Below are positions 47,848 through 64,000 of a DNA stretch of 64,000 nt, in pieces (position 1 is the first letter of the stretch; every line of letters starts with the position of its first letter). The notes under the pieces are model-generated. The model did not search any database and had not been told where the DNA came from. It was given only the letters and a program-made list of their open reading frames with translations. Source of the DNA: Taibaiella chishuiensis (GTDB lineage Bacteria; Bacteroidota; Bacteroidia; Chitinophagales; Chitinophagaceae); contig NZ_PYGD01000002.1 in assembly GCF_003014535.1 (NCBI RefSeq), positions 372,001 through 436,000 of the forward strand. Reading direction: 5' to 3'. The position numbers and the translations under genes are program-made.

Positions 47848-47898
47848 CTTTATTTAGGGGTTTTTGGGGTGAACTGGATCAGGACTGCATCCTTCGGC

Positions 47899-48300
47899 TC
47901 AGGTCTCTATGGCAGTGGTTTGGATGGCTATACAGGATTGCCCCGGCAGGTAGCCGGTAATAACGATGGGAATACGGCTGCTGCCTTCGGCCCGGGTAAC
48001 GGTTATATCGGACAATTGCTCCTGCAGGTAGGTAAATAATTTGTTGAGCTTTGCGGCATTCTGCACCAGTACCTCATCGCCGGGATCGCTGCTGCGGCCC
48101 AGGCGTTCGAAGAAGCCAGCCGGATCGACTTGTTTCAGGCTGCCGGGATCGGCCTGTAGCATAGCCGCAATTTTGTCGTTGCGTTCCCCGGGAGCTACGG
48201 CTCCCCAGTCGCTTACCGTAAAGGGATGTTCTGATTCGCTGAAATACAGCGCCCCGTCTATCATAGCGGAGGTCTCGGATATAAATGCAGCAGGGTTCAT
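47899..48300 (-). CDS. NuiA-family nuclease A inhibitor-like protein
   Basis: A 133-aa product. The N-terminal sequence DGALYFSESEHPFTVSDWGAVAPGE resembles the known Anabaena NuiA segment with SESEYPFEV and a later W; the C-terminus (DITVTRAEGSSRIPIVITGYLPGQSCIAIQTTAIET) also fits, including the closing T(K/T).(V/I)ET. There is no signal peptide, so it would protect the cytoplasm. It is upstream of the NUC1-type nuclease in the same operon, as expected for an inhibitor made before its nuclease. A quasi-palindrome lies 1-30 nt before its ATG. Confidence 0.88.
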   Translation of the reverse strand: MNPAAFISETSAMIDGALYFSESEHPFTVSDWGAVAPGERNDKIAAMLQADPGSLKQVDPAGFFERLGRSSDPGDEVLVQNAAKLNKLFTYLQEQLSDITVTRAEGSSRIPIVITGYLPGQSCIAIQTTAIET

Positions 48301-49074: not shown

Positions 49075-49689
49075 ATGATACGTACTGCCCTGACATTTAT
49101 AAAAAATGAACTGGATGCCTATTTCGTGGCCCGCGAAAATGATCCTGCCTTATATGCTCCCGGAAGTAATATAGAACTGCAGGCGCTGGCCGCTCCCGGA
49201 GGCGCCATCGACCTTAACGATAACCTGCATGTGTACATGATGCTTGCCGGTATCGAAGAAGGCCGCCGCGAAGGCAAAAGGCCCTTGTTTATGGCGGCGG
49301 ATAATAACGACCTGTATAAGCTCAATCCCCCGGTAGAACTGGAGCTGAGCGTGCTCTTTGCCGCACACAGGAGCAGCTACCCGATGGCCCTGCGCGATCT
49401 TACCCATGTGATCAGCTTCTTCCAGGCCAACCCCGTATTCGACCGGCAGCGCTACCCGGCGATGAATGGTACGGTTACCGACCCCGAGGCTACGCCCTGG
49501 CAGCTTGTAGATCGCCTCTCCTTCCGGATGATGAACTTGGGCTTTGAACAGCAGAATAACCTCTGGGCTATGATCGGTACCAAATACCTGCCGAATGTTA
49601 TGTACAAGGTCAATGTGCTTACCGTATTCGATACGCAACCTAAAGAAAAAGCAATCCCTGTTTCCGAATTCAATATTCAAGAGCCCTAA
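49075..49689 (+). CDS. DUF4255 (Pvc16-N-type) eCIS protein, candidate tube/sheath terminator
   Basis: A 204-aa product. IRTALTFIKNELDAYF at the start and NLWAMIGTKYLPNVMYKVNVLTVF at the end bracket a beta-rich core, the pattern of DUF4255/Pvc16_N proteins. In characterised systems such as PVC and Afp the homologue caps the tube and sheath ends. In PVC it is the last gene; here it is the first. It is followed after only 2 nt by the unknown 391-aa gene. Confidence 0.85.
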   Translation: MIRTALTFIKNELDAYFVARENDPALYAPGSNIELQALAAPGGAIDLNDNLHVYMMLAGIEEGRREGKRPLFMAADNNDLYKLNPPVELELSVLFAAHRSSYPMALRDLTHVISFFQANPVFDRQRYPAMNGTVTDPEATPWQLVDRLSFRMMNLGFEQQNNLWAMIGTKYLPNVMYKVNVLTVFDTQPKEKAIPVSEFNIQEP

Positions 49690-49691
49690 TC

Positions 49692-50867
49692 ATGAATGCA
49701 ATACATGTAAAATACAGCACCCTGTTCAGCCTGGGCATCCGGCAGCTGTACTATGCCAACGGCATAGGCCCGGGCTACCGCATCAGCCCGGAAACGGATA
49801 TGGACATCCTGCCTACCGAAGCCACCGTAAATACCCTGCGCAGGCTCGATATGATCTTTAAAAGAACCGACCGGAATGCCGGCTTTACCCTGCTGGCCAA
49901 TACCATCGGTAAATCGGGACCCAACGATGTGTTGCGTGTGGCGCCGGGCAAAGGCGACCGGCTCAGCTTTTTTATCCTGTTTAAAAAGGCTGCTTCCTAT
50001 CATTATAACCTGTTGCCTATGCCCATGCCGGCCAACAGCCTGTTGTACTTCAGTAACGAAGTGGGCGACGGCGCTGCACCGCGTGCCAACCTGCACCTCA
50101 GCACATCGGCAAACGGGGTGGATGGCAGTGTGGATCTGATAAAAAGCGCCGGGCCGGTATACCGGTACAACCACAATACCACCATCGTTCCCGGTAAGGC
50201 CAGGGTGGTGCACCGTTCCGGTGCGGTATTACTGCCCGAATCGCTGATCAATGAAAACGGCAAAGCCGCCCTGGTCTTTAACCTGCTGTCGCTGCCGGAA
50301 GGCCGCTGCAGCCTGCTGGTCGACGGTGTCACCATCGAAGCGTTTTATTATACCGGTCCGCTGGATGGGTTGAAAGTGGCCGGTGTTATCGACCTGAGCC
50401 TGGCCGATGTGCTGCCGGCCAATTACCGGATCGTAGAGCCTGCCAAACAACTGGCGCCCGCCCGCCCTGCATTCACCATCTCCTTTCCCAACCGCAAGAC
50501 CATATGGCGGTACGTGGTACAAATGCAAAGCAGCAGCCCGCTGTACCTGCAAATGAAAGACCTGAACCCGGCCGATAAGATACAGTTCCTCAATACACTC
50601 AAAATAGAAAGCAACGATCCTAACGTGGTTTTTACCCGCTCGGCGGCAACCGACTTCAGTATCGTATTTGAATCCACCCAGCCTATTGCCCTGCAGGAGC
50701 GGTACCTGGCTTCAGCGGTCAACGACCCGCTCCATATCAACTTCAACCGTTACCCCGGACCGGGTACGCCTACGGTACTCCGCGCCAGCCTGCCTTATCC
50801 CTCCACGGATATGATCAATGCCCTTAATCCCAACGCTGTTTTATCTGAAATATTCCTAACCATTTAA
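49692..50867 (+). CDS. Unknown eCIS-operon protein, 391 aa
   Basis: A beta-rich soluble protein with no signal peptide. Parts that look folded are ATVNTLRRLDMIFKRTDRNAGFTLLANTIGKSGPNDVLRVAP at the N-terminus and FLNTLKIESNDPNVVFTRSAATDFSIVFES near residue 310. Placement between the DUF4255 and sheath genes (2 nt and 12 nt spacers) implies a structural or assembly role: cap adaptor, sheath chaperone or collar are the options. I cannot name a family and there is no catalytic motif. Confidence 0.6.
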   Translation: MNAIHVKYSTLFSLGIRQLYYANGIGPGYRISPETDMDILPTEATVNTLRRLDMIFKRTDRNAGFTLLANTIGKSGPNDVLRVAPGKGDRLSFFILFKKAASYHYNLLPMPMPANSLLYFSNEVGDGAAPRANLHLSTSANGVDGSVDLIKSAGPVYRYNHNTTIVPGKARVVHRSGAVLLPESLINENGKAALVFNLLSLPEGRCSLLVDGVTIEAFYYTGPLDGLKVAGVIDLSLADVLPANYRIVEPAKQLAPARPAFTISFPNRKTIWRYVVQMQSSSPLYLQMKDLNPADKIQFLNTLKIESNDPNVVFTRSAATDFSIVFESTQPIALQERYLASAVNDPLHINFNRYPGPGTPTVLRASLPYPSTDMINALNPNAVLSEIFLTI

Positions 50868-50879
50868 ACTCTAACAAAC

Positions 50880-52325
50880 ATGTCTGTTTTAAAACTCTCC
50901 ACCCCGGGTGTGTATGTGCAGGAAGTATCTTCCCTGCCGCCTTCTGTTGCCGAAGTAGAAACGGCAATACCGGCTTTTATCGGTTATACGGCCAAGGCCG
51001 ACCGACTGGCTCCGGGTGACCTGGTCATGGTGGCCAACAAAATCAATAACATGAGCGACTTCGAGCACTTTTACGGCGGAGCTCCCCTCGAGTCCAACAA
51101 CAGTATCACCGTTGCCGTTAAGGATTATGGCAACAGCCGCTACGAAGTGGGCTTTGGTTACGATGCCACCCAGCGCTCCAAAAACAACCTGTACTATTCC
51201 GTAAAACACTTTTACGACAACGGCGGCGGTACCTGTTACATTGTAGCGGTAGATACCTACAAAGCCAGCGTGGATAAAGACCTCCTGAAAAAAGGACTGG
51301 ACGTGGTGTACGAGGTAGACGAGGTAACCCTGCTGGTGGTGCCCGAAGCCGCTAAGAACGATGCTGCAGCTTATACGGACGTAGTGAATAAAATGATCGC
51401 CCAGGCCGCTGCCCTTAAAGACCGTTTTGCGCTGATCGATCCCTTCCAGGTGACACCGAAAAACTCGAGCGATCCTAACGGCGATATCGATGCCGATGTT
51501 AAACTGATCCGCGATGCGAGCCTGTCGGTAGCCGAGAACCGTTATGCAGCGGCTTATTATCCCAATGTAGTCACTACTTATGATTTCCAGTATGACCTGC
51601 CCAACCTGCAGATCGATACGTATACCCTGGTAGGGGTAGCGGCGCCATCGGTGGCCGGTCATGCAGCAGGCATGGTCCTTTCTGCCGCCGGCGCGGGTTC
51701 CGTGCTCTACAACAAGGTAAAGGACGAACTGAAAAAGCAATATGTAACCCTGCCGCCTACACCCGCCATTGCCGGTCTGTATGCCCGTGTGGACAGTACC
51801 AAAGGGGTGTGGAAAGCGCCGGCCAATGAATCGCTGATGTCGGTGATCGGTCCGGATATCGCGATCTCCAACCGCGAACAGGAAAACCTCAACGTCGATT
51901 CGTCTACTGGTAAATCCATCAACGTGGTGCGTAGCTTCCCGGGTTATGGCACCCTGGTATGGGGCGCACGTACCCTCAACGGTAACGATAACGAATGGCG
52001 TTATATCAGTGTGCGCCGCTTCTTCAATATGGTAGAAGAGTCGATCAAGAAATCGAGCCAGTGGGCGGTATTCGAACCCAATACGATCAATACCTGGGTA
52101 AAGATGCAGGCCATGATCGAAAACTACCTGTTCCTGAAATGGAAAGAAGGCGCGCTTGCCGGCGTAAAACCGGAGCAGGCTTATTATGTACGGGTGGGCC
52201 TGGGCACAACCATGAATGCCATCGATGTACTGGAAGGCCGTATGAACGTAGAGATCGGTATGGCTGTTGCCCGTCCGGCTGAGTTTATCGTATTAAGCTT
52301 TACCCAGTTAATGCAACAATCTTAA
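50880..52325 (+). CDS. Contractile tail sheath protein (Pvc2-4/Afp2-4-like)
   Basis: A 481-aa product. STPGVYVQEVSSLPPSVAEVETAIPAFIGYT is the canonical sheath N-terminus. YVRVGLGTTMNAIDVLEGRMNVEIGMAVARPAEFIVLSFTQ is the C-terminal handshake strand region, and NVVRSFPGYGTLVWGARTL precedes it. It forms the contractile outer tube around the inner tube. Only one sheath gene is present in the operon, in contrast to three in PVC. Confidence 0.97.
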   Translation: MSVLKLSTPGVYVQEVSSLPPSVAEVETAIPAFIGYTAKADRLAPGDLVMVANKINNMSDFEHFYGGAPLESNNSITVAVKDYGNSRYEVGFGYDATQRSKNNLYYSVKHFYDNGGGTCYIVAVDTYKASVDKDLLKKGLDVVYEVDEVTLLVVPEAAKNDAAAYTDVVNKMIAQAAALKDRFALIDPFQVTPKNSSDPNGDIDADVKLIRDASLSVAENRYAAAYYPNVVTTYDFQYDLPNLQIDTYTLVGVAAPSVAGHAAGMVLSAAGAGSVLYNKVKDELKKQYVTLPPTPAIAGLYARVDSTKGVWKAPANESLMSVIGPDIAISNREQENLNVDSSTGKSINVVRSFPGYGTLVWGARTLNGNDNEWRYISVRRFFNMVEESIKKSSQWAVFEPNTINTWVKMQAMIENYLFLKWKEGALAGVKPEQAYYVRVGLGTTMNAIDVLEGRMNVEIGMAVARPAEFIVLSFTQLMQQS

Positions 52326-52370
52326 TTCCTGCATCAAAACCATTTCTAAAAATCAATAAAACAAAATATT

Positions 52371-52805
52371 ATGGCAACGTATCCCATCCCGGTTTTTCAT
52401 TATAAAGTATCCTGGAATAACGAAGACATCGGCTTTTCGGACGTATCCGGACTGACCCAGGAAATATCGCCGATCGAGTACCGCGACGGCCTGATGTCGG
52501 CAACCACGGTGCCGCTGAAAAGGCCGGGCCTGATCAAGGTAAACAATATCAGCCTGAAGCGCGGTATTACCGAAAAGAACAACGACCTGTTCAACTGGTT
52601 CAACAATAACGGCTCCCCCAATGTGGAGCGCCGAGACATTACCATCTCCCTGCTCAACGACGAAGGCAACCCGGTAATGGTATGGTCGGTATCGCAGGCC
52701 TGGCCTGTGAAGTGCGAAGGACCGGGGCTCAAAGCTACCGGCAACGAGATCGCCATCGAAACCATAGAACTCGTACACGAGGGTATTAAAGTTAAAACCG
52801 TATAA
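52371..52805 (+). CDS. Inner tube protein, gp19-type (Pvc1/5-like), first copy
   Basis: A 144-aa product. YPIPVFHYKVSWNNEDIGFSDVSGL is the characteristic gp19 N-terminal strand pair and SQAWPVKCEGPGLKATGNEIAIETIELVHEG the C-terminal end. It stacks as hexameric rings to make the inner tube through which cargo passes. The 3-nt gap to the second copy indicates coupled expression. Confidence 0.95.
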   Translation: MATYPIPVFHYKVSWNNEDIGFSDVSGLTQEISPIEYRDGLMSATTVPLKRPGLIKVNNISLKRGITEKNNDLFNWFNNNGSPNVERRDITISLLNDEGNPVMVWSVSQAWPVKCEGPGLKATGNEIAIETIELVHEGIKVKTV

Positions 52806-52808
52806 CAC

Positions 52809-53276
52809 ATGGCCAGCTATTATCCACCCACGGGCTTCCATTTCCGGGTCGAATTCCAGGGCATCAGCGGTATGGATAGCGATACCGAGCAACGTTTCCA
52901 GGATGTAGGCGGACTCTCGTTCGAGATCGAAACCGAAACCGTGAATGAAGGCGGCGAAAACCGGTTTAGTCATAAGTTCCCGAAACGGACCAAGTATCCC
53001 AACCTGGTGCTGAAGCGGGGCCTGCTTACCAATACCGCTTTGCTGGACTGGATGAATGCCGCCATGAATACCTTTTATACCGTAGTGATCTATGACTTCA
53101 AACCTGCGGATATCCTGATCTCCCTCCTGGACGAGGCAGGCAACCCGCTGGCTGTATGGAGCGTGGTACAGGCTTATCCCGTAAAATGGTCGGTATCCGA
53201 TTTCCGGTCGACGGAGAATGCTGTGGTTGTGGAAACCATAGAACTGGCCTATCAATATTTCGAACGAAAACTATAA
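52809..53276 (+). CDS. Inner tube protein, gp19-type, second copy
   Basis: A 155-aa product. YYPPTGFHFRVEFQGISGMDSDTEQRFQDVGGL and VQAYPVKWSVSDFRSTENAVVVETIELAYQYF give the gp19 pattern. It is clearly divergent from the first copy and larger, so it may form a specialised ring near the baseplate, as Pvc5 does in PVC. Confidence 0.94.
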   Translation: MASYYPPTGFHFRVEFQGISGMDSDTEQRFQDVGGLSFEIETETVNEGGENRFSHKFPKRTKYPNLVLKRGLLTNTALLDWMNAAMNTFYTVVIYDFKPADILISLLDEAGNPLAVWSVVQAYPVKWSVSDFRSTENAVVVETIELAYQYFERKL

Positions 53277-53280
53277 CGCC

Positions 53281-53445
53281 ATGCCTGTCCAGATCAATGA
53301 AGTAGTCATAAAAATATCGGTCGATGCTGACCCTGCCGGAGCTCCTGCACCGGCAGCTTCAGCCGGTCTGTCCGATACCGGTAACGACGATGCAGCCATT
53401 GCAGCGTTGGTCTTACAAATCATCAAAGAAAAAAATGAAAGATAA
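53281..53445 (+). CDS. DUF5908-type small eCIS protein (Pvc6 position)
   Basis: A 54-aa product that begins MPVQINEVVIKISVD, the typical DUF5908 pattern, then Ala/Pro-rich residues and LVLQIIKEKNER. It lies 4 nt after the second tube gene and its stop codon overlaps the ATG of the next gene by one base (TAATG), so it is translationally coupled. Its function in eCIS loci is unknown. Confidence 0.8.
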   Translation: MPVQINEVVIKISVDADPAGAPAPAASAGLSDTGNDDAAIAALVLQIIKEKNER

Positions 53446-54134
53446 TGGACGCGCAATCCGCAGCCAAGCTGCCTTTTAATCTGAAGATCATCCCTACCAA
53501 CCGCGACGGTATACCGATGGGCGTGCCCTTCCTGGCTATGCTTAACCCCGAAAACTTTTCGGTAAAGGAAGATGTAGTCTGGTATGAAAAGCCCATACCC
53601 GGCAAGAACGGGACCGATCCTACCTTCCTGGCTGTTCGCCCGCGCACCTTTACCATCGATTTCATACTCGACGGAACCGGCGTGAATACCAACGGGGTTA
53701 AGATCCCGGTTACCGCACAGGTAGCGCTTTTCAGGGGGGTAACCACCAATATCCGTGGTACCATACACCGCCCCTCCTACCTGATGGTACAATACGGCAC
53801 TTTTGTAAATGTATGCGTACTGACCACCTCGACGGTTACCTATACCATGTTCGACCTGGCCGGTTTGCCGATCAGGGCCAAGATCTCGGCCACCTTTACC
53901 GAACGCATCATCTCCGGTCTCAGCGATGTACTGGGTATGTTGTCTTCGCCGGATCTTACGCACGAGGTAGAGGTAAAGCAATACGACCTGTTGCCCCTGC
54001 TTACCTATAACATATACCAGAACCAGCACTACTACCTGCAGGTGGCCAAAGCCAACCGGATCAAGAATTTCCGGAAGCTGAAGCCCGGCACGAAGCTGAA
54101 CTTTTACCCGCTGTTATCCGCAAAAAAACAATAA
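53445..54134 (+). CDS. CIS tube-initiator/LysM protein (Pvc7/Afp7-like)
   Basis: A 229-aa product. The N-terminal domain (IPMGVPFLAMLNPENFSVKEDVVW; RTFTIDFILDGTGVN) fits the CIS tube protein family, and the last 50 residues form a LysM-type domain (YDLLPLLTYNIYQNQHYYLQVAKANRIKNFRKLKPGTKLNFYPL). In PVC this protein links the spike to the tube. It starts by overlap with the DUF5908 gene. Confidence 0.9.
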   Translation: MDAQSAAKLPFNLKIIPTNRDGIPMGVPFLAMLNPENFSVKEDVVWYEKPIPGKNGTDPTFLAVRPRTFTIDFILDGTGVNTNGVKIPVTAQVALFRGVTTNIRGTIHRPSYLMVQYGTFVNVCVLTTSTVTYTMFDLAGLPIRAKISATFTERIISGLSDVLGMLSSPDLTHEVEVKQYDLLPLLTYNIYQNQHYYLQVAKANRIKNFRKLKPGTKLNFYPLLSAKKQ

Positions 54135-54156
54135 AGCATAAAACCCAGTTACCGTC

Positions 54157-55782
54157 ATGAGCTTAACCAGTTTCCCGCCGGGCAGCGCAGCGCCCACCGA
54201 TGTCGTAAGCCAGAAAGTCTGGATCAATGGCGCCGTACTCAGCAACGAAGTATTGCTGAGCCAGCTTACCGTGCAAAAGACGTTCAATAAAATAGCCTCT
54301 GCCCGGCTGGTGTTTGTAGACGGCTCTGCTGCCGAACGCGATTTTGCACTGAGCAGCGGCGACCTCTTCAAACCGGGCAACGAGATCCGGATAGGCCTGG
54401 GCTACGATGGCGATGTGACCACCGTGTTTGAAGGCATTATTGTAAAACACAGTATTAAAATAGGGCAGGGCGGAAGATCGCTGCTGATGGTCGAAGCTAA
54501 GGATAAAGCCATAAAGCTGACCGGCGCCCGTAAAAGCGCTTACTTCAGCGAAAAGACCGATAGCGATATCCTCTCCGAACTGGCCGGTGGCGCCGGTTTA
54601 CAGACCGAGATCGCGACAACCGCCTTCTCGCATAAACAAATGGTACAGTTCGATACTACCGACTGGGACTTTATGCTTACCCGTGCCGAAGCCAATAGTA
54701 TGCTGGTACTGACCGACGATGGCAAGATCGTAATCGGCAAACCTGTAGCCGCAGGCCCTGCGGTACTTACTGCCTTATTTGGCAGCAATATCATGGAGTT
54801 TGAAGCGGAAATGGACGCCCGCCGGCAACTGAAAAGCGTAAAGGCCGACAGCTGGAGCCCGACCAACCTGGAGCTCGATGAGTCGTCGGAAGGCACGGCC
54901 ACCTTTACGGAACCTGGCAATATTACGGCTTCTGAGCTGGCCGATATCCTGGCTGCCGACCTGCAATTGACGCATACCGGAAACCTGGGCCAGCAGCAAT
55001 TGCAGGACTGGGCCGATGCCTATGCCTTACGCAGCAAACTGTCGAAAGCCGTGGGCCGTGTACGCGTCCAGGGCAGCGCCGATGCCAAACCCGGCGTGAT
55101 GATCACGCTTTCCGGCGTAGGCGACCGCTTTAACGGCGATGTATGGGTAACCGGTGTGCTGCATCACTTCGACGGCAACTGGACCAGCGATGTACAATTC
55201 GGCTGGGCCGAAGGCTGGTTCTATAAAAAAGAAGAGGTGATGAACAAGCCTGCCGCAGGCCTGCTGCCCGGTATAAACGGGTTGCAGGTAGGTACCGTAG
55301 TCGATACCGCCGATCCCGAGGGCAACTACCGGCTCAAAGTACATGTGCCCACCATTACCGGTGGCGGAGATGGCTTCTGGGCGCGGGTTGTAAGTCCCGA
55401 TGCCGGCCAGGACCGCGGGCTTTACTTCCGGCCGCAGACCGGCGACGAGGTGATCCTGGGTTTTCTCAACGACGATCCCAGGGAGCCTGTTGTGCTGGGC
55501 TGTATGCACAGTAAGGATAAGAAAGCCCTGCCCTTCCGCGAGAACGAAGAGTTTGGCGTGATTACCAAGGAAAAAGTAAAAGTGTTGCTCGACGATACCA
55601 ATAAAAAGCTCACCCTGAGTGTAACAACCAGCTCGGGCGATAAGACCATTATCCTGAACGACTCCGGCGCTATGGAGCTGAAGGATGAATACGGCAACAG
55701 CATCAAAATGGAACAGTCGGGTATTACCATCGAGGCCAGCGCCAATGTAACCATTAAAGGCGCCCAGGTGTTGATCAACTGA
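54157..55782 (+). CDS. VgrG/gp27-gp5-like spike protein (Pvc8-like)
   Basis: A 541-aa product. The gp27-like part (LSQLTVQKTFNKIASARLVFVDGS; TTVFEGIIVKHSIKIGQGGRSLLMVEAKDKAIKLTGARKSAYF) occupies about residues 20-330. The gp5-type OB fold is at about 370-460 (VGTVVDTADPEGNYRLKVHVPTI; GLYFRPQTGDEVILGFLNDDPREPVVLGC). The last 60 residues (LKDEYGNSIKMEQSGITIEASANVTIKGAQVLIN) are beta-helix-like. It forms the tip that pierces the target membrane. Confidence 0.95.
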   Translation: MSLTSFPPGSAAPTDVVSQKVWINGAVLSNEVLLSQLTVQKTFNKIASARLVFVDGSAAERDFALSSGDLFKPGNEIRIGLGYDGDVTTVFEGIIVKHSIKIGQGGRSLLMVEAKDKAIKLTGARKSAYFSEKTDSDILSELAGGAGLQTEIATTAFSHKQMVQFDTTDWDFMLTRAEANSMLVLTDDGKIVIGKPVAAGPAVLTALFGSNIMEFEAEMDARRQLKSVKADSWSPTNLELDESSEGTATFTEPGNITASELADILAADLQLTHTGNLGQQQLQDWADAYALRSKLSKAVGRVRVQGSADAKPGVMITLSGVGDRFNGDVWVTGVLHHFDGNWTSDVQFGWAEGWFYKKEEVMNKPAAGLLPGINGLQVGTVVDTADPEGNYRLKVHVPTITGGGDGFWARVVSPDAGQDRGLYFRPQTGDEVILGFLNDDPREPVVLGCMHSKDKKALPFRENEEFGVITKEKVKVLLDDTNKKLTLSVTTSSGDKTIILNDSGAMELKDEYGNSIKMEQSGITIEASANVTIKGAQVLIN

Positions 55783-55814
55783 TTTTTATTCCTGACCGCT
55801 AAAAGAGAAAAGCC

Positions 55815-56111
55815 ATGCCAGCAGCAGCCCGCATCAACGACAATCATACCTGTCCTATGGTTAACCCGGGCACGAACAGCCCGCATACCGGTGGCCCCAT
55901 CCTGCCGCCCGGCGTACCTACCGTACTCATCGGCGGTCAGCCGGCTGCCGTGGTGGGCGATATGTGTACGTGCTCAGGACCGCCGGACAGCATCATTAAA
56001 GGATCTGCCACGGTACTGATCGGCGGCAAACCCGCAGCCCGCCAGGGCGACAGCACGGCTCATGGCGGCAGCATTACCGCCGGCTGCGCTACTGTGCTCA
56101 TCGGCGGATAA
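55815..56111 (+). CDS. PAAR-domain spike tip protein (Pvc10-like)
   Basis: A 98-aa product with three VLIGG-type strands (TVLIGGQPAAVVGDM, ATVLIGGKPAARQGD, ATVLIGG), and His/Cys residues (HTCP, CTCSG, HGG) typical of the zinc-binding PAAR cone. It sharpens the VgrG-like spike immediately upstream. It is followed 25 nt later by the gp25-like gene. Confidence 0.94.
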   Translation: MPAAARINDNHTCPMVNPGTNSPHTGGPILPPGVPTVLIGGQPAAVVGDMCTCSGPPDSIIKGSATVLIGGKPAARQGDSTAHGGSITAGCATVLIGG

Positions 56112-56136
56112 AAGACTAACCCCTAAAATTTTTACC

Positions 56137-56565
56137 ATGCAAGAAAATAGTAACCGTTCATTTTTAGGTACCGGCTGGAACTTTCCGCCTACCTTTCGCC
56201 GGGAGTGGTATGGTCCCGAAATGCTGAGTGGGGAGGAGGATGTGCGCAGCAGTATCCGCATCATCCTCGAGACCATTACGGGCGAGCGGGTCATGCTGCC
56301 CAATTTCGGTTGTAACCTGCAGCCTTATATTTTCGAACCCATGACGCCGGCTACCATCACCCTGATCCAGAAGATCGTTTTCGAAGCGTTATCCATCCAT
56401 GAGCCCCGTATTATCGTAGGCGATATTACCTATAAGCTGGATGAAGCCGCCGGTGTACTGGAACTCGATATTCCCTATACCATCATTACCACCAACACCC
56501 GTTACAACTACACCTATCCATTCTATATCGAAGAGGCTACCAATATCGAACGTAACCCGGCATAG
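56137..56565 (+). CDS. gp25/GPW-type baseplate wedge protein (Pvc9-like)
   Basis: A 142-aa product from the ATG at 56137. GEEDVRSSIRIILETITGERVMLPNFGCNLQPYIFEPMTP is the core gp25/IraD signature, including the EPR/ITGER and FGC segments, followed by ALSIHEPRIIVGDITYKLDEAAGVLELDIPYTI. It initiates the sheath at the baseplate in homologous systems. It is followed by a giant baseplate gene after 38 nt. Confidence 0.94.
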   Translation: MQENSNRSFLGTGWNFPPTFRREWYGPEMLSGEEDVRSSIRIILETITGERVMLPNFGCNLQPYIFEPMTPATITLIQKIVFEALSIHEPRIIVGDITYKLDEAAGVLELDIPYTIITTNTRYNYTYPFYIEEATNIERNPA

Positions 56566-56603
56566 TATCCCTTCCTTATTTTTTTATCTATAAACCCTGC
56601 CCA

Positions 56604-59600
56604 ATGAGCAATTGTAACTGCAATACTGAAATCATCCGCGACGGCTCCAGCCAACTGGATCGATACCTACAGGCACTGGATCCCGCTTATGCGCCCGTGG
56701 ACGGGCGCAGCCTGGAAGATCTGCTGGTTTTCGCGAAACGTTATGCCGCCCGGATCAGATTTTACGATATACCTGAAAGCAAGATCAACGACGACACCGA
56801 TCCCGGGAAACTGAGCTGGAGCGAGTTCTTCAGGAGAGATATGGCCGTACTGGCATCGTCGGTTGCAACGCTTGATGCCGGCCGGTTTAAACTGCGCTAC
56901 GATGCGCAGCGTGAAGCCCTCGAACAGGCTCCCGACCGGGATAAATACGTATCTCTCTACCATATCGTACTCGAAATGGCAGCGCAGATCGATCAGTGGT
57001 ACCGTGTTGCCATACCCGGCAACCCCTTACGCACCGACCTGGACCTGGCCATCGATGCACACCTGCGCGGGCAGATGCAGCGTGTGATCGCCTACGAGGA
57101 AGGATACCGGCTTATCGATGCCAAACATCCTTTACAACTCGATTATACCATCATCAGTAATGACGCATTATGGGGCCTGGACGATGCCATAGATCCTGAT
57201 GCGACTATTTATGATGCCGACAACTTTGAAGATAAACTCAGGAACGCAGCTTTATATGCGGATGAGCTTTTTAATAGTTTTTACAGCTTTATCAATAACC
57301 TGGTCGAACAGTCGGACCGCTACCTGCAATTCGCACTGGAACAATACCCCGGGCATCAGCCGCATATGGCGCTGTTTATCGCCTTCCTGAAGCTGTTCCG
57401 GCTGGCCCAGGAGCAGATGAACGGTCTTACCGGCCGTATGCTCGACTTCTACTATAAAGAAGTGCTGCAGCTGCAGGCCAAGGATGCGTTGCCTGACAGG
57501 GCCCATGTCGTGTTTGAACTGGCCAAGGAAGTAACCGAATACAGCCTGGATCCCGGTACGGCGCTCAAAGCCGGCAAGGACGGCGGCGGTATAGAACAGG
57601 TGTATGCAACCGATACCGGCCTGGTGATCAACCAGGCTAAAGTAAAAGAACTGAAAACCATCTTTATCGAAAAGACGCCGCTGCAGGCCGGTCCGGAAGA
57701 TAAGACCCTGCAAACCATCTATGCCCGGCCCGTGGCCAACTCGGCCGATGGTTACGGCGCGCCTTTCCTGGCGCCCAATCCCAAGTGGTACACCTTTGGT
57801 AAAGGTGTGCTGAACGATAAACAAAAATCCGATACCTGTGCGGTGATCCGCGATATGGAAGATGCCGGTACGGTACTGAATCAAACGCAGATCGGCTTTG
57901 CCATCGCCTCGCCCCAACTGGTATTGCAGGGTGGCAACCGCCTGATCAGCTGGAAACTCGATGGTTTCAGCGAAATATTCCGTGAAAAGGAATTGGATAG
58001 CAACAATGGCGATACCGCCGAAAAAGACCTGCTGATCGTGCTCAGCGGTGAAGAAGGCTGGCTGCCGGTGGCACGCAGGCTGATGACCTGGGAATACGAC
58101 AATTTCAACAACGAGTTGCGCAGCGGTGCATTTCCGCGTAATATCGATACTTCCTTTTATTACCACGACCGGGGCGGTAATACGCTGCATGTATACCTGC
58201 CGGTAGCGGAAAAGGCCATCGTGCCTTATAATACCAAACTGCATGCCGGCAAAACCTTTATGACCCAATGGCCGGTAATGCAGGTGCTGCTGGGGCCGGA
58301 TGTAAAGATCGACGAAGGCCGCTTTAATGCCCTGCGTTTTAATGATCTTTCCCTGTCGGTACGTGTAGGGTCGCACAACCTGCACGAAGACAGCCTGATG
58401 GCCGCGCATTTCGACGGGCTTAAAAAACTGGTGCTGCAGAACGACGACGGCCTGATTACACCAGGTAAGCCTTTCGATCCTTTTACGGCTTATCCCTTAC
58501 CGGGCAAGTCGCTTTATGTGGGCAGCAGCGAAGTGTTTAATAAACCCCTGACCGAACTCTCCATCCACATCAAACATACTATGGAGCGCAATGCGCCTAC
58601 CAGTCCGCCTTCCAGCCCGCCTTCCGACGAAGAGGCCGCCGATCAGAACGCCTTTTACCGCACCAGTATCCTGGAGCAGAAGTCCTGGAACGAGCTGAAG
58701 TATGACAAACAGCTCTTTTCGGAAGCAACACTGTCCAAGGACTTGTTCCGCGACCGTTATTTCCCTTACGGTTATACACAAACCGACCGCAAGCCCATTG
58801 CCTTTTACGATAAAGTGGATGATAAAACGACCAGGGGTTTTGTACAGCTTAAATTCAGTACGCGCGACTATAACAATAATAGCTTCCTGAAGGATAATAA
58901 GCTGTCGGATACCGACAACAGCACCTGGCAGGCCCTGGCTATGAAATTCCAGGTAAAGGAGATCTCGGTGAGTTATGCTTCCGAGTTGCGTAACCTGGAC
59001 CAGGAGATCGACCAGTTTTTTCATGTATATCCTTTTGGCGCTATAGAGACTTATACCATACCCTATGTGGAGCAGCCCCAGGGATCGCCGCCCTACAACT
59101 ATTTCTACGATACGCCGAACTACGCCCGGAAGGCCGCTTTACAGGCACTGCCCGGCACACAGCCGGCTACGTTTGAAGAGATGGACCGGCAGCGGGGTTG
59201 GCTGCTGGTGGATGCCGATGAACGGTTGTTGCCGCATTTTACCTACAAGAGCGTGTATGCATTACCGGAAGCGCCTGTAGCATCGCCGCCGGTTAAACAT
59301 ACGAAACCCAATATGCGCAGGCTCAAAGACGGTAGCCTGCAGGAAGTGATCGTAACGGGCAGCAAGCGGGCCGTGATCAGCAACCAGTACGCTGGCAAAA
59401 TACAGGAAGAAGGTATGCTCTTTATCGGCCTGGAAAATGCAAAGCCGCTACAGACGCTTTCGATGTTGTTCCAGTTTGCCGAAGGCAGCGCCGAAGATGA
59501 AGACAACGAGCCGCCTGCAATCAACTGGTCCTATCTCAGCAACAACGAATGGAAACCCATGCGGGGCGAAGATATCGTGAGCGATGGCACTTACGGTTTC

Positions 59601-61409
59601 CAGACCACGGGTATAGTTAAGGTCAATATCCCCGGCGATGCCACCGATAACAATACCATCATTACCGCCGGGCTGCACTGGCTTTGCGCCAGCGTTACCC
59701 AAGATGCCAACCGCATCCCTATGTTGATCGATATCCGTACACAAGCTGTTACGGTAACCTTCCGCGACAACAACAATGACGCCACGCATTATGACAAAGC
59801 GTTGCCTGCGGGTACCATAGCCAAACTGGCTAGCGCTGTGCCCGAGGTGAGTAAAGTAGAGCAACCTTTTGCCAGTTTCGATGGTAAACACAAAGAAGCC
59901 GGCCGGGAATACTACCAGCGTGTAAGCGAAAGGCTCCGGCATAAACACCGCGCCATTACACCCTGGGATTATGAACACCTGGTGCTGGACCGTTTTGCTA
60001 CGGTTTATAAAGTAAAATGTATCAGTCATACCGACCCGGAATGCCTGTGCCGCGATACGGTAACCGTTTCCGGCAGCGATAGCAAGACTTTTATGGTGCC
60101 CCAGGAAGATCCCAATGGCGGTATCCTGCTCGACGATATTGCGAAAGAACTGCTGGGTAATACACAGCTTACCGGTAAGGTACGCGGTTACGGCGACGGG
60201 CCCGAAGGCCTGATGCTGGCCAAACGCAGGGCTGATAAGATTATGCAGCTGCTGGTAAAATATGGTATTGCCGCAGGTCGCCTGTCTACGGAAGCATTGA
60301 ACGGTACGGATAATACCCGGTTCGAAGTAATTGTTTCGGGTTACCCGGTAACCGGCAGCCAGGCGCATTGCTGTGGTCCGCAGGTAGCGCCGGGGCATGT
60401 ACTGATTGTACCGGTAGCCGACCTGAAAAACAGGAATTCCATTAACCCTTTACAGCCTAAGACCGGCCGCAGGGTCTTGCTCGATATAGAACGTTACCTG
60501 CAGGGCCTGAGCTCGCCTTTTGTAAAGATCCATGCCCGCAACCCGGTATATGAAGAGATACTGACCTCCTTCGCCGTGAAGTTTTATACCGGTACCGACC
60601 AGGGTTATTTCCTGAAAGTACTTAACGACGAACTGGTGCGCTTCCTGACGCCCTGGGCCTTCGACGAACAGGCAACCTTCCGATTCGGGCAAAAGGTTTA
60701 TGCCTCTTCGATCATCAATTTTATCGAAGAACGGCCTTATGTAGACTTTATCACCGACTTCGAAATGCGGGTATGTATGGAAACCTGCTGCCCCGAACCT
60801 GCCGGCAAACGCAAGCGGGATGATAAGTTCAGCCCTGCCGATCTTTCCGGTTGCGATGCTATCGAAAACCTGATCGGCGACGCATTGAAAGACAGCGGTG
60901 CGATTGTGGCACGCCCTTCGGGTCCTCGTTCCATCCTCGTTTCTGCACCGCGGCACCAGATCCGGCCTTATGTGGCGCCCATACTGGAAACACCTTGCGA
61001 GCAGCGCCAGAAAATGAAGAAAGCAAAACCAGCGCCGGTTACGGATACCCGTATCGATCCTGTGGACGTAAAGGACAGGGTTAAGGATGTGGTGGCTACA
61101 GACCATGCGGCTGTGGAAAAAGAAACCGCTACCGGGGTCAAAGCAAAAACAGAAGCGCTGAAGGATACGTTGACGGCTGCTAAAGCTACTAGCGCATCAC
61201 TGCGTGAGGTTAAGGCCACGGTGGCGAAGAAAACCGCGGAGGAAATCCCTGCTGTTCCGGCAGCGCCTGCCGGTGCTGCTGCTACACCCGCCTCGCCGGA
61301 ACCTGCTCCTGCAGCTGAAGACGCGGCTGCAACGAAGAAAGTAGCCGCTAAAAAAACAAGCCCTGCCAAGCGTACCAAAATAATCACTATTAAAAAGACG
61401 GATAAGTAG
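56604..61409 (+). CDS. Giant baseplate J protein with OmpA-like insertion and Lys/Ala/Pro tail (Pvc11-like)
   Basis: A 1601-aa product. Baseplate J-like features include VELAKEVTEYSLDPGTALKAGKDGGG-type text near 290-330, HRAITPWDYEHLVLDRFATVYKVKCISHT at 1117-1143 and GHVLIVPVADLKNRNSINPLQPK from 1265. Between these an insertion (about 1146-1261) has OmpA-like elements: GYGD (1195-1198), LAKRRADK (1205-1212), YGIAAGRLSTE (1220-1230) and RFEVI (1239-1243). It is bracketed by C1139/C1147/C1149 and C1256/C1257. The final 130 residues (about 1470-1601) are Lys/Ala/Pro-rich, ending TKIITIKKTDK. A Pro/Ser tract lies near 670. It is one of the wedge proteins. The inserted part could bind peptidoglycan, but key residues are only partly kept. 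Confidence 0.88.
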   Translation: MSNCNCNTEIIRDGSSQLDRYLQALDPAYAPVDGRSLEDLLVFAKRYAARIRFYDIPESKINDDTDPGKLSWSEFFRRDMAVLASSVATLDAGRFKLRYDAQREALEQAPDRDKYVSLYHIVLEMAAQIDQWYRVAIPGNPLRTDLDLAIDAHLRGQMQRVIAYEEGYRLIDAKHPLQLDYTIISNDALWGLDDAIDPDATIYDADNFEDKLRNAALYADELFNSFYSFINNLVEQSDRYLQFALEQYPGHQPHMALFIAFLKLFRLAQEQMNGLTGRMLDFYYKEVLQLQAKDALPDRAHVVFELAKEVTEYSLDPGTALKAGKDGGGIEQVYATDTGLVINQAKVKELKTIFIEKTPLQAGPEDKTLQTIYARPVANSADGYGAPFLAPNPKWYTFGKGVLNDKQKSDTCAVIRDMEDAGTVLNQTQIGFAIASPQLVLQGGNRLISWKLDGFSEIFREKELDSNNGDTAEKDLLIVLSGEEGWLPVARRLMTWEYDNFNNELRSGAFPRNIDTSFYYHDRGGNTLHVYLPVAEKAIVPYNTKLHAGKTFMTQWPVMQVLLGPDVKIDEGRFNALRFNDLSLSVRVGSHNLHEDSLMAAHFDGLKKLVLQNDDGLITPGKPFDPFTAYPLPGKSLYVGSSEVFNKPLTELSIHIKHTMERNAPTSPPSSPPSDEEAADQNAFYRTSILEQKSWNELKYDKQLFSEATLSKDLFRDRYFPYGYTQTDRKPIAFYDKVDDKTTRGFVQLKFSTRDYNNNSFLKDNKLSDTDNSTWQALAMKFQVKEISVSYASELRNLDQEIDQFFHVYPFGAIETYTIPYVEQPQGSPPYNYFYDTPNYARKAALQALPGTQPATFEEMDRQRGWLLVDADERLLPHFTYKSVYALPEAPVASPPVKHTKPNMRRLKDGSLQEVIVTGSKRAVISNQYAGKIQEEGMLFIGLENAKPLQTLSMLFQFAEGSAEDEDNEPPAINWSYLSNNEWKPMRGEDIVSDGTYGFQTTGIVKVNIPGDATDNNTIITAGLHWLCASVTQDANRIPMLIDIRTQAVTVTFRDNNNDATHYDKALPAGTIAKLASAVPEVSKVEQPFASFDGKHKEAGREYYQRVSERLRHKHRAITPWDYEHLVLDRFATVYKVKCISHTDPECLCRDTVTVSGSDSKTFMVPQEDPNGGILLDDIAKELLGNTQLTGKVRGYGDGPEGLMLAKRRADKIMQLLVKYGIAAGRLSTEALNGTDNTRFEVIVSGYPVTGSQAHCCGPQVAPGHVLIVPVADLKNRNSINPLQPKTGRRVLLDIERYLQGLSSPFVKIHARNPVYEEILTSFAVKFYTGTDQGYFLKVLNDELVRFLTPWAFDEQATFRFGQKVYASSIINFIEERPYVDFITDFEMRVCMETCCPEPAGKRKRDDKFSPADLSGCDAIENLIGDALKDSGAIVARPSGPRSILVSAPRHQIRPYVAPILETPCEQRQKMKKAKPAPVTDTRIDPVDVKDRVKDVVATDHAAVEKETATGVKAKTEALKDTLTAAKATSASLREVKATVAKKTAEEIPAVPAAPAGAAATPASPEPAPAAEDAAATKKVAAKKTSPAKRTKIITIKKTDK

Positions 61410-61440
61410 TCCTGCTGCTCATCTATAAACCTTATATGCC

Positions 61441-64000
61441 ATGCCCGATATCATTTCCTTAGTAAAAGAAAACCCGCTGTTGCCTGCCGAAGACTACGCC
61501 GCGATGCGTAAAGAAGGCTTTAAGCAGATCGAGAAGCTGGGCAGCGACCATTGGACGGATTATAATAATTCAGACCCCGGTATCACCATCCTGGAAGCTG
61601 TATTATACGCCATTACCGACCTGTCTTACCGTACCGGCTTCGACATCAAAGACCTGCTGGCGCCCGAACAGCTTACCGGCGATACCTGGAAGCAGGTATT
61701 TTATACCGCCAGGCAGATCCTGCACAACAGCGCATTGACCATTACCGATTACCGTAAGCTGATGATCGATGTAAAAGGGGTGCGCAATGCCTGGATCGAA
61801 CCCTCGAAAGAGTACGAAGTGCCGGTATGGGTGGACTATAATACCTATGAACTGAAAGCGCATGAAGACTGTCATTGCGAGGACAAGGAGCAGGAAGTTT
61901 GTATGGGCCGCCTGGGTATCGAAGCCGCTACGCCCGAGGCTGCAGCCGCTTTCCTGTCCAAACAAAAAGACGATGCCCTGCAACGGCAGCAGGCGCTGAC
62001 CAAAAAGCAGGATGAGCTGAACGAAGCCCTGAAAAAGATCGAGGATCAGATCGCCAGGGAGAGCGACCCCATTGCCCTGGAAGAGTTGAAAAAGAACCGC
62101 GAAAAATTTGCGGAACAGCTCCGGGACAACAGGAACGGGCTCAATGGCATAACCAAAGAGCTCGACCTGATCGCTTCCATGAAATATATACCTTCCAAGA
62201 TCGTGGAGTTCGAGGGCATCTATAACGTAATGGTGGAATACGAAGAAAATGTACTGGAAGAAGATCAGCGCGAAGAGGTACGGCAGCAGGTGGTACAACG
62301 CCTGTCGGCCAACCGTAGCCTTTGCGAAGATTTCCTGACCGTTAATGCTGTCGAATATGAAGATATCGGCATCGGCGCATCGGTCACGCTGCAGGAGTAT
62401 GCCGATCCTGACCTGGTGCTGGCCCGCATCTTCTTTATCATCTATAAATACTTTACGCCTTCCGTACCTTTTTATACTCTGCAGCAAATGCTGGAAAAAG
62501 GGTACGATACCGATGAGATCTTCGAAGGACCGGCGCTGGAACATGGGTTTATCGAAGACAGGGATATTGAAAAGACCAGCCTGTACCGCGATATCCGTAT
62601 GTCCGACATCATCAACGAGATTGCCGATATTGAAGGGGTGATCGCTATTACCTATTTGCACCTGCCTTTCGATGGTTTTGAAAACGAAGAAGCGGGTAAG
62701 GCTTATTTCGATCAATGGGTCAGGTTCCTGCAGCGCGAAAGGAAAGTAGCCCGTATCAGTCCCGAACGGAGCCAGGTGATCTTCTGCAAACAAAAAGAAA
62801 TGATCACCTATAATACCGGCAATGTCAAAGACCGCCGGTCGAACAGGATGCTGAAGCTGTTCCGCGACTTTAAGATCGCAGAACGTACATACAAACTGGA
62901 AGGCATAAGCCTCGATATCGCCGTGCCTGTGGGCGAAAATATGGAGCTGGAAGATTACTACCCGGTTACCTATTCGCTGCCGATGACCTATGGGGTAAGC
63001 GACAGGGCGGGCCTGCCGGGCAGTGCCGACGATAAGCGCAAGGTACAGGCTTTACAACTTAAAGGGTACCTGCTGTTCTTCGAACAATTGCTGGCCGGTC
63101 ACCTGGTACAACTCAATCACCTGCGCGATCTTTTTACTATGGATGAGAGTACCGAACATACCTATTTCAACCGGGTACTGCAGGAGATAGCCGGTCTGCA
63201 GGACCTGCTGATCGACGAAAAAGGCCGCGGCGCGGGCCATTTCGACCAGGTAATGCAGGACTTCTCTATCGTATTACAGGAGCTTATGGAAAGCCGCGAA
63301 CAATTCCTGGTGCGCCGTAACCGTTTCCTGGAGCACTTCCTGGGCCGTTTCTCCGAAGACCGGAGCGCTTACGATGCCATTAACCGCTGGCTGGACCCGG
63401 CTACGGCAGACGAACGCCTGGTAGACGATAAGATCCGTATGCTGAAAGACGGTGAATATACGCCCATCAGCTCGGGCCGCGGCAGGGGGTACAACTATAC
63501 CAGTCCCGACTTCTGGGATACCGATAATGTATCCGGCGCCGAACGGCGCATCGGCCGCCTGCTGGGCTTTGGCAGCATCCGGCGGCACGACCTGTCGCCC
63601 CGGTTCATAACTACAGAGCCGGTTATGATCCTGAACAAGAAAAAGCAGCAGGAACAAAAGCTCAGCAAGAAAGGCAAACCCCTGAATGTGGTGAAACTCC
63701 TGCATCCCGATAACAATGAACAGGTATTGCTGACGAGCGTGGAAAGTGTAGAAGGCTGCTGTACCGAACAACTGATCAGCGATATCCTGGAGCATGCCGA
63801 TAATACGGCGCATATCAAACTGTACGACGACCTGAACCGCCGGGCGCGCAAGACCGCAGGACCCGTAGGCAGCTTCTGGTTCGAAATATGGGATGGCCCG
63901 GCCGAAGAAACGGCCGTGTTACTGGCCGAGAGTCCCCGTTTTGATAAAAAGGAATTACGGGATGAAGCGCTGGCTACGCTGTTGCAGGTCATGAAAGGCA
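61441..64000 (+). CDS. Second large baseplate-associated protein (Pvc12 position), 3' end outside window
   Basis: At least 853 aa from the ATG at 61441. An N-terminal segment (DYNNSDPGITILEAVLYAITDLSYRTGFDIKDLLAPE) is the DPGITxLE signature of large baseplate proteins of eCIS. A cysteine cluster (EDCHCEDKEQEVC) precedes a coiled coil at about residues 170-245 (LQRQQALTKKQDELNEALKKIEDQI; LKKNREKFAEQLRDNRN). Later parts repeat Tyr-rich strands. It probably forms a wedge with the 1601-aa protein 31 nt upstream. Its end and the following genes (ATPase, tape measure, fibre, toxin) are outside the window. Confidence 0.85.
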   Translation, partial: MPDIISLVKENPLLPAEDYAAMRKEGFKQIEKLGSDHWTDYNNSDPGITILEAVLYAITDLSYRTGFDIKDLLAPEQLTGDTWKQVFYTARQILHNSALTITDYRKLMIDVKGVRNAWIEPSKEYEVPVWVDYNTYELKAHEDCHCEDKEQEVCMGRLGIEAATPEAAAAFLSKQKDDALQRQQALTKKQDELNEALKKIEDQIARESDPIALEELKKNREKFAEQLRDNRNGLNGITKELDLIASMKYIPSKIVEFEGIYNVMVEYEENVLEEDQREEVRQQVVQRLSANRSLCEDFLTVNAVEYEDIGIGASVTLQEYADPDLVLARIFFIIYKYFTPSVPFYTLQQMLEKGYDTDEIFEGPALEHGFIEDRDIEKTSLYRDIRMSDIINEIADIEGVIAITYLHLPFDGFENEEAGKAYFDQWVRFLQRERKVARISPERSQVIFCKQKEMITYNTGNVKDRRSNRMLKLFRDFKIAERTYKLEGISLDIAVPVGENMELEDYYPVTYSLPMTYGVSDRAGLPGSADDKRKVQALQLKGYLLFFEQLLAGHLVQLNHLRDLFTMDESTEHTYFNRVLQEIAGLQDLLIDEKGRGAGHFDQVMQDFSIVLQELMESREQFLVRRNRFLEHFLGRFSEDRSAYDAINRWLDPATADERLVDDKIRMLKDGEYTPISSGRGRGYNYTSPDFWDTDNVSGAERRIGRLLGFGSIRRHDLSPRFITTEPVMILNKKKQQEQKLSKKGKPLNVVKLLHPDNNEQVLLTSVESVEGCCTEQLISDILEHADNTAHIKLYDDLNRRARKTAGPVGSFWFEIWDGPAEETAVLLAESPRFDKKELRDEALATLLQVMKG

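Follow-up and report, generated by a model that had tools for sequence, protein, structure and literature searches.

Tail fibers are taken to decide the target of an extracellular contractile injection system (eCIS) and to trigger its firing. AlgoCIS of Algoriphagus machipongonensis, a contractile injection system (CIS) of subtype Ib, is described as having a single sheath protein and a cap adaptor, together with a short cap comparable to the Pvc16 N-terminal domain; its cargo proteins Cgo1 and Cgo2, which share a leader and differ in their C-termini, fill the tube (PMC8894135). In the thylakoid-anchored CIS (tCIS) of Anabaena, two DUF4157 proteins are given as putative effectors, and the C-terminal extension of Cis11 is reported to contact the Cis13 fiber trimer (PMC8894136). 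Proteins of one and the same family form the crown of tCIS (Cis19) and the fiber of AlgoCIS (Alg19). Fiber-less Bacteroidota CIS are already in print: the gut BIS (Parabacteroides CIS-Pd), described as lacking Cis13 and Alg19 fibers, is placed in group Ib with the T6SSiv of Amoebophilus, and both have DUF4157 cargo (PMC12210884, PMC7394362). Streptomyces CIS-Sc is likewise described as having no tail fiber (PMC10066040, PMC12237407), and a fiber catalogue of 2026 mentions “likely fiberless” loci as lying outside its scope (PMC12923769). Here, we describe a CIS locus of Taibaiella chishuiensis that has no gene at the fiber position and belongs to a monophyletic clade of such loci. It starts at position 49075 of a window of 64,000 nucleotides (C2:372001-436000; the genome comprises 5.84 Mb in 24 contigs) and runs past its end; the 39 kb that follow on this contig were also analyzed. 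No published description of this clade, or of the Cis11 inserts and tail reported below, was found in a literature search that excluded most subscription papers.

In single-sequence PDB searches, the sheath matched tCIS (E 9.4e-126), AlgoCIS (2.1e-118), and Afp3 (1.5e-65), and Cis11 matched tCIS (1.9e-135), AlgoCIS (6.2e-115), and Pvc11 (4.8e-37); the best PDB match of the cap is also in tCIS. The original prediction, an eCIS operon with the gene order of Afp/PVC/MAC-type loci, therefore needs partial correction, the Afp/PVC machines being distant. With tCIS and AlgoCIS as its nearest relatives of known structure, the DUF4255 gene in first place and the single sheath, which had been listed as differences, are ordinary for loci of this subtype. 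The locus shares with AlgoCIS the layout of cap, cap adaptor, single sheath, tube initiator, plug (here a position-based candidate), long Cis11, Cis12, and DUF4157 cargo. It differs in having no Alg19-family gene anywhere in the genome, in its Cis11, which has 1601 aa with an insert and a basic tail as against 1050 aa, and in its five cargo genes as against two. tCIS has Cis13 (fiber-like, transmembrane) and Cis19, whereas here a Cis19-type gene is absent and none of the 22 locus proteins contains a 19-residue window above 1.6 on the Kyte–Doolittle scale, the threshold for a transmembrane segment. The BIS is described as lacking Cis6 and as having a homologue of Aasi_0556, seen as a membrane-anchoring fiber analogue (PMC12210884), whereas in the T. 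chishuiensis locus a DUF5908 protein is the plug candidate and every gene from the cap to the ATPase has an assignment. CIS-Sc is of subtype IId and has the membrane protein CisA at the fiber position, which no gene occupies here. The CIS of Chitinophaga rupis (L079/L105), which carries the toxin EAT14, falls in the same fiber-less clade; no mention of its missing fiber was found in the accessible parts of the published account (PMC11297309).

CIS loci are common among the relatives of T. chishuiensis, since the tape measure family CIS_TMP is present in 28 of 147. We compared 25 loci in which Cis12 and a tape measure are both present; 24 belong to the family of T. chishuiensis and the last, G098, to its order. 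A gene of 333–1583 aa lies between Cis12 and the tape measure in 13 of them, and in 12 of these 13 it belongs to one homologous family of the Cis19/Alg19 type. One copy was tested, that of G087, and its protein matches tCIS All3314/Cis19 (1.6e-58) and a chain of the AlgoCIS entry 9wt0 (7.8e-56). The 333-aa gene of G098 showed no match to the other 12. In G011 and G083, Cis12 exceeds 2000 aa and a separate gene at the fiber position is absent. The remaining ten loci have neither feature: the window locus, G028, G186, G295, G329, G358, and four loci with a long tape measure (G079, G232, G239, and the second locus of G008). A Cis12 profile, which matched 80 of 394 genomes of the family, set apart the same six, namely the window locus, G028, G186, G295, G329, and G358, their best pieces scoring 1350–2573 bits versus 311 or less.

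A hidden Markov model (HMM) of the 12 fiber sequences, run against the open reading frames (ORFs) of 52 locus sets, matched 15 ORFs, none of them in a fiber-less locus. A four-row profile for the Cis19/Alg19 type, searched genome-wide, found nothing in the nine fiber-less or sister genomes, one of which is 67 percent complete, and recovered all three controls. In every one of the 21 non-redundant clade loci where both genes are intact, Cis12 and the tape measure are separated by −61 to 145 nt, which is too short for a fiber gene. An accessory gene replacing the fiber was also considered and rejected: in the stretches examined, the largest extra family occurs in six clade loci and none in more.

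The clade was delimited by a scan of named genomes with Cis11, which gave 24 loci, including G028, G186, G329, and G358; with the window locus and G295, there are 26 non-redundant loci. The named loci come from Chitinophaga (nine records), Ferruginibacter (two), Flavihumibacter, Taibaiella, Niabella, Segetibacter, and Ohtaekwangia, and from bins labelled Bacteroidetes (two), Bacteroides, Flammeovirgaceae, Chlorobium, Chlorobiaceae, Kapaibacterium, and Ignavibacteria. Cis12 and the tape measure are intact in 21 of the 26; four loci break off short of the tape measure, and an intact Cis12 frame is missing from L075. In a tree of spike and sheath from 45 loci, computed under the single fixed model LG+F+R4 and rooted at the midpoint, all 26 are monophyletic with an ultrafast bootstrap (UFBoot) support of 100. 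Three of the fiber-less loci with long tape measures form the sister group (100). The fourth, the second locus of G008, is placed elsewhere, so the absence of the fiber also occurs outside the clade.

The sister loci L058 (G079), L056 (G232), and L060 (G239) have tape measures of 765–1094 aa and no fiber gene. No Pvc16_N protein was called beside their sheaths, matches lying roughly 10–40 kb away on the same contig, and weak eCIS_core proteins of G079 are scattered over several contigs. Possibly, this group is BIS/T6SSiv-like.

The baseplate protein Cis11 has a distinctive form in the clade. Comparison of 23 complete clade Cis11 proteins, with G295 added for some counts to give 24, revealed a conserved backbone with two optional inserts; the other 22 share 45–53 percent identity with the window protein and have many invariant columns. 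Site A (aa 1151–1255 in the window Cis11) holds 105–126 aa in six of the 23 and 7–39 aa in the rest, and site B (aa 1397–1436) holds 131–140 aa in six and 40–65 aa in the rest. G295 has both long inserts, bringing each site to 7 of 24. The inserts are partly inherited and not freely swapped, since their carriers are grouped on the tree (three changes for each site versus a shuffled mean of about 6.2). CarbopepD_reg_2 matches seven of the 23 proteins with E values of at most 0.1, the strongest being 8.3e-16; this number exceeds that of the site-B carriers (six) by one.

The site-A insert of the window protein (60108-60308, + strand) resembles OmpA, with 22 bits for PF00691, below the Pfam cut-off of 27.2. 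Among the 23 proteins, only this one matches OmpA (0.0048 as a whole protein, below the cut-off as a fragment), and the match is the weakest of 11 OmpA matches in the whole genome (4.5e-4). An HMM built from eight OmpA domains of the same genome ranked the window Cis11 first of the 23 (6.8e-5), followed by three other site-A carriers, and did not single out two more. The loop that we take to hold the ligand residues of OmpA domains is shortened in the insert, so peptidoglycan binding is doubtful. As a clade-wide wall anchor the OmpA domain is a weak candidate, given the sub-cut-off score and the long site-A insert in only 7 of 24 proteins.

The second peculiarity is a Lys/Ala/Pro-rich C-terminal tail (aa 1466–1601; 60999-61406, + strand). 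Beyond aa 1460, 22 of the 23 clade proteins have 57–224 residues, mostly rich in Ala, Pro, and Lys, and the last 40 residues carry a net charge of +4 or more in 18 of the 23. None of 177 proteins representing eight other backbone types in the named loci had such a basic end, nor did any of the Cis11 proteins of 15 other loci of the family and order (12 with a Cis19-type fiber plus G098, G011, and G389, the last locus being incomplete). A SILVS-like motif, identified by eye, lies within the last 40 residues of 14 of 19 non-clade Cis11 proteins; in the clade, it precedes the tail. Since the Cis11 extension of tCIS contacts the Cis13 fiber trimer, the tail may, by analogy, sit where a fiber would dock.

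The remaining parts were assigned by the best Pfam family per protein above its curated cut-off, and PHROGs and NCBIfam added little beyond the Pfam and PDB results. All genes of the operon in the window share the + strand, and no gap between them exceeds 45 nt in the ORF list, as predicted; the predicted gene content was borne out gene by gene by Pfam and, for the large baseplate genes, by PDB matches. The cap protein Cis16A/Alg16A (Pvc16_N = DUF4255; 49075-49689) matches PF14065 (9.8e-27), All3327 (5.9e-15), and the AlgoCIS cap (1.7e-10). Parts of its residues 106–193 also give odd PDB matches to designed SAKe proteins at about 1e-5 to 1e-8. The second gene (49692-50867, 391 aa) gave one chance-level match (0.39) in a single-sequence search. 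We rejected it as a fiber, as a two-row profile against PDB identified it as the cap adaptor Cis16B/Alg16B (All3326 7.1e-8, AlgoCIS cap adaptor 5.4e-5). These are followed by the single sheath protein Cis2 (50880-52325; PF17482, PF04984; All3325 9.4e-126) and two gp19-like inner tube proteins of the Cis1/Cis5 type (52371-52805 and 52809-53276; Phage_T4_gp19 PF06841, 2.1e-40 and 6.1e-44), which are the only two gp19 matches in the genome and thus indicate one CIS. A DUF5908 protein (53281-53445; PF19265 1.2e-11) is the candidate spike plug at the Cis6/Alg6 position, its equivalence to Alg6 being by position only.

The tube initiator Cis7 (CIS_tube, 53445-54134; PF19266 4.5e-32), the VgrG-like spike Cis8 (Phage_base_V, 54157-55782; PF04717 1e-22), and the PAAR spike tip Cis10 (55815-56111; PF05488 1.4e-26) come next. 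The gp25-like sheath initiator Cis9 (GPW_gp25; PF04965 8.4e-22) was called at 56062-56565; its true start is probably about 25–30 codons downstream of 56062, since 18 of 24 named relatives have 138–142 aa. The two large baseplate proteins of the original prediction, neither of which matches Pfam, proved to be the wedge proteins Cis11 (56604-61409; All3317 1.9e-135) and Cis12 (1171 aa, 61441-64956). The latter extends beyond 64000 to coordinate 1957 of L003, the locus coordinate system to which 62999 is added to obtain the position. Its in-window part matches Alg12 (4.9e-92) and All3315 (2.3e-85); with the full-length protein in a two-row profile, the order is reversed (All3315 1.4e-122, Alg12 6.7e-117). 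Judged by its genes, the locus appears to specify a subtype-Ib contractile injection particle in full: a Cis9/Cis11/Cis12 baseplate, a spike with PAAR tip and candidate plug, a tube within one sheath, and a cap with its adaptor.

The operon had been expected to continue past 64000 with ATPase and effector genes, and it does so to about 78757. It encodes a CIS_TMP tape measure (64896-66455; Pfam 4.9e-118), an AAA ATPase (66449-67888; 4.2e-27), a PG_binding_1+CHAP hydrolase (67927-68685; Pfam), five tandem eCIS_core/DUF4157 proteins (68745-77001; Pfam E 5.8e-30 or better), a 250-aa protein of no assigned function, and a PG_binding_1+N-acetylmuramidase that ends at 78757 (Pfam). Extending the contig thus supplied the tape measure, ATPase, and cargo that had been sought, and no gene at the fiber position. 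Pfam scans of eight ORFs upstream and ten downstream found no capsid, terminase, or portal gene, so a prophage or phage tail is rejected for these flanks; they found no TssJLM or other Tss gene of a type VI secretion system either, nor did the locus contain one, Tss genes not having been searched genome-wide. Pfam assigns a family to nine of the ten downstream ORFs; these include genes for an iron permease, a dehydrogenase, acetyltransferases, and metal-related enzymes. Upstream are NuiA-type inhibitor, nuclease, DinB, AI-2E-transporter, and RibD_C genes and three small ORFs without matches. Just upstream of the operon (46489-48300, − strand), a lipoprotein-like secreted Endonuclease_NS (452 aa) adjoins the NuiA-type inhibitor (133 aa); the two might be a nuclease and the producer’s protection against it.

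The five DUF4157-headed proteins, which are likely lumen cargo, combine a common leader and an HExxH-containing eCIS_core domain with C-termini that vary from one protein to the next. Over 629 bp of leader, two neighboring cargo genes (L003:7486-8114 and L003:9261-9889) are 92.8 percent identical in DNA sequence, and beyond it they diverge, which points to a recent duplication followed by replacement of the end. In the clade, 45 of 46 cargo proteins match eCIS_core; a few have a transglutaminase, VanY, annexin, nuclease, or protease second domain, and most have none. Five cargo genes are not unusual, as six clade loci have 2–7 and some Chitinophaga loci have one. A different contig has a weak sixth eCIS_core match (25.8 bits) within a short open frame (G000:C16:47827-48012). 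The cargo gene that directly follows the ATPase in C. rupis shows the domain arrangement of EAT14, DUF4157-LysM-Transglut_prok, with compatible spacing of the three active-site residues published for that toxin. Together with the identity of the strain, these features lead us to infer that it is EAT14 with its start codon 22 residues downstream.

How would such a particle work? The reading that we favor, at somewhat less than an even chance, is a complete subtype-Ib fiber-less particle whose baseplate makes contact through the Cis11 tails or inserts. By analogy with known systems, the tape measure would set the particle length and the AAA ATPase would help to load the cargo. Release, if any, would probably be by lysis, which the CHAP and muramidase genes could serve. 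The baseplate itself would then make the first contact with an anionic surface, with six mostly basic Cis11 tails and the optional inserts in place of fibers, the surface being either that of a target cell or the producer’s own envelope. The sequence data establish which parts are present and in what order, that a Cis19/Alg19-type gene is absent, that the fiber-less clade is monophyletic, and that Cis11 has an added C-terminal extension.

Several points weigh against this reading. The position of the tail and inserts on the particle would follow from tCIS by analogy, and the gut BIS, without Cis13 and Alg19, is thought to be cell-bound rather than released (PMC12210884). The basic tail is found in none of the four fiber-less loci with long tape measures; since the sister group among them has neither fiber nor basic tail, the tail is no general answer to fiber loss. 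Within the clade, 5 of 23 ends are weakly charged, neutral, or acidic (L067 +3, L084 +1, L068 0, L074 0, L086 −3), and L086 has hardly any extension, with 30 residues past aa 1460. Two of the 23 proteins match HC2, a histone H1-like family, and the tail could bind nucleic acid instead. The genome-wide fiber negative covers the Cis19/Alg19 type and extends neither to other fiber types nor to Cis13 or Aasi_0556-type proteins. A bolder version, which we consider unlikely, is that a lineage of Bacteroidota and Chlorobiota gave up fibers without acquiring a membrane anchor and makes electrostatic contact with its target by means of six flexible, polycationic Cis11 tails and optional OmpA-like or CarbopepD_reg-like domains near the spike. 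Such a syringe would be broad-range and “sticky” rather than receptor-specific.

Baseplate contact is only slightly ahead of the possibility that the particle is not meant for release at all, which we regard as a serious contender, itself short of even. It would fire inside the producer under stress, as in CIS-Sc and tCIS, or be anchored in the envelope, as in T6SSiv and the gut BIS. The parts of the locus support a CIS of the eCIS family in Bacteroidota, as was predicted; “extracellular” is unproven, because the fiber of the usual mode is absent from the locus and the Cis19/Alg19 family was not found in the genome. CIS-Sc, without fibers, is described as cytoplasmic (PMC10066040, PMC12237407), the BIS without Cis13 and Alg19 is grouped with T6SSiv in Ib (PMC12210884), and the fiber catalogue states that fiber-less loci might act intracellularly (PMC12923769). 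The closeness of sheath, cap, and Cis11 to tCIS proteins and the two wall hydrolases in the operon point the same way. However, the locus has no transmembrane-strength window and, in the stretches examined, no extra family shared by more than six clade loci; unlike the Cis6-less BIS with its Aasi_0556 homologue, it has a plug candidate and a fully assigned stretch from cap to ATPase. In addition, toxicity of C. rupis EAT14 toward E. coli and yeast has been reported (PMC11297309), in keeping with injection into other cells.

An ordinary eCIS with its fiber encoded elsewhere, or of a type invisible to the profile, is rather improbable. Fibers are described as diverging fast and being hard to find (PMC12923769), and the gene at the fiber position of G098 resembles none of the others; however, the gap is closed in all 21 loci from many hosts, nothing between cap and ATPase is unassigned, and no accessory family is common to more than six clade loci. 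A decayed remnant, as the missing fiber and the lack of an intact Cis12 in L075 might suggest, is highly improbable, since the backbone genes of the window locus are intact and the backbone is kept across the clade despite 45–53 percent Cis11 identity, with many columns invariant.

Thus, a monophyletic and widespread lineage, of the kind left out by the scope of the fiber catalogue (PMC12923769), combines an otherwise complete machine and rich cargo with no fiber gene and no evident anchor. The published toxin EAT14 would accordingly belong to a fiber-less system, which raises the question of how it is delivered. Fiber-free CIS firing becomes a testable question in culturable Chitinophagaceae, beside Streptomyces, cyanobacteria, and the gut BIS.

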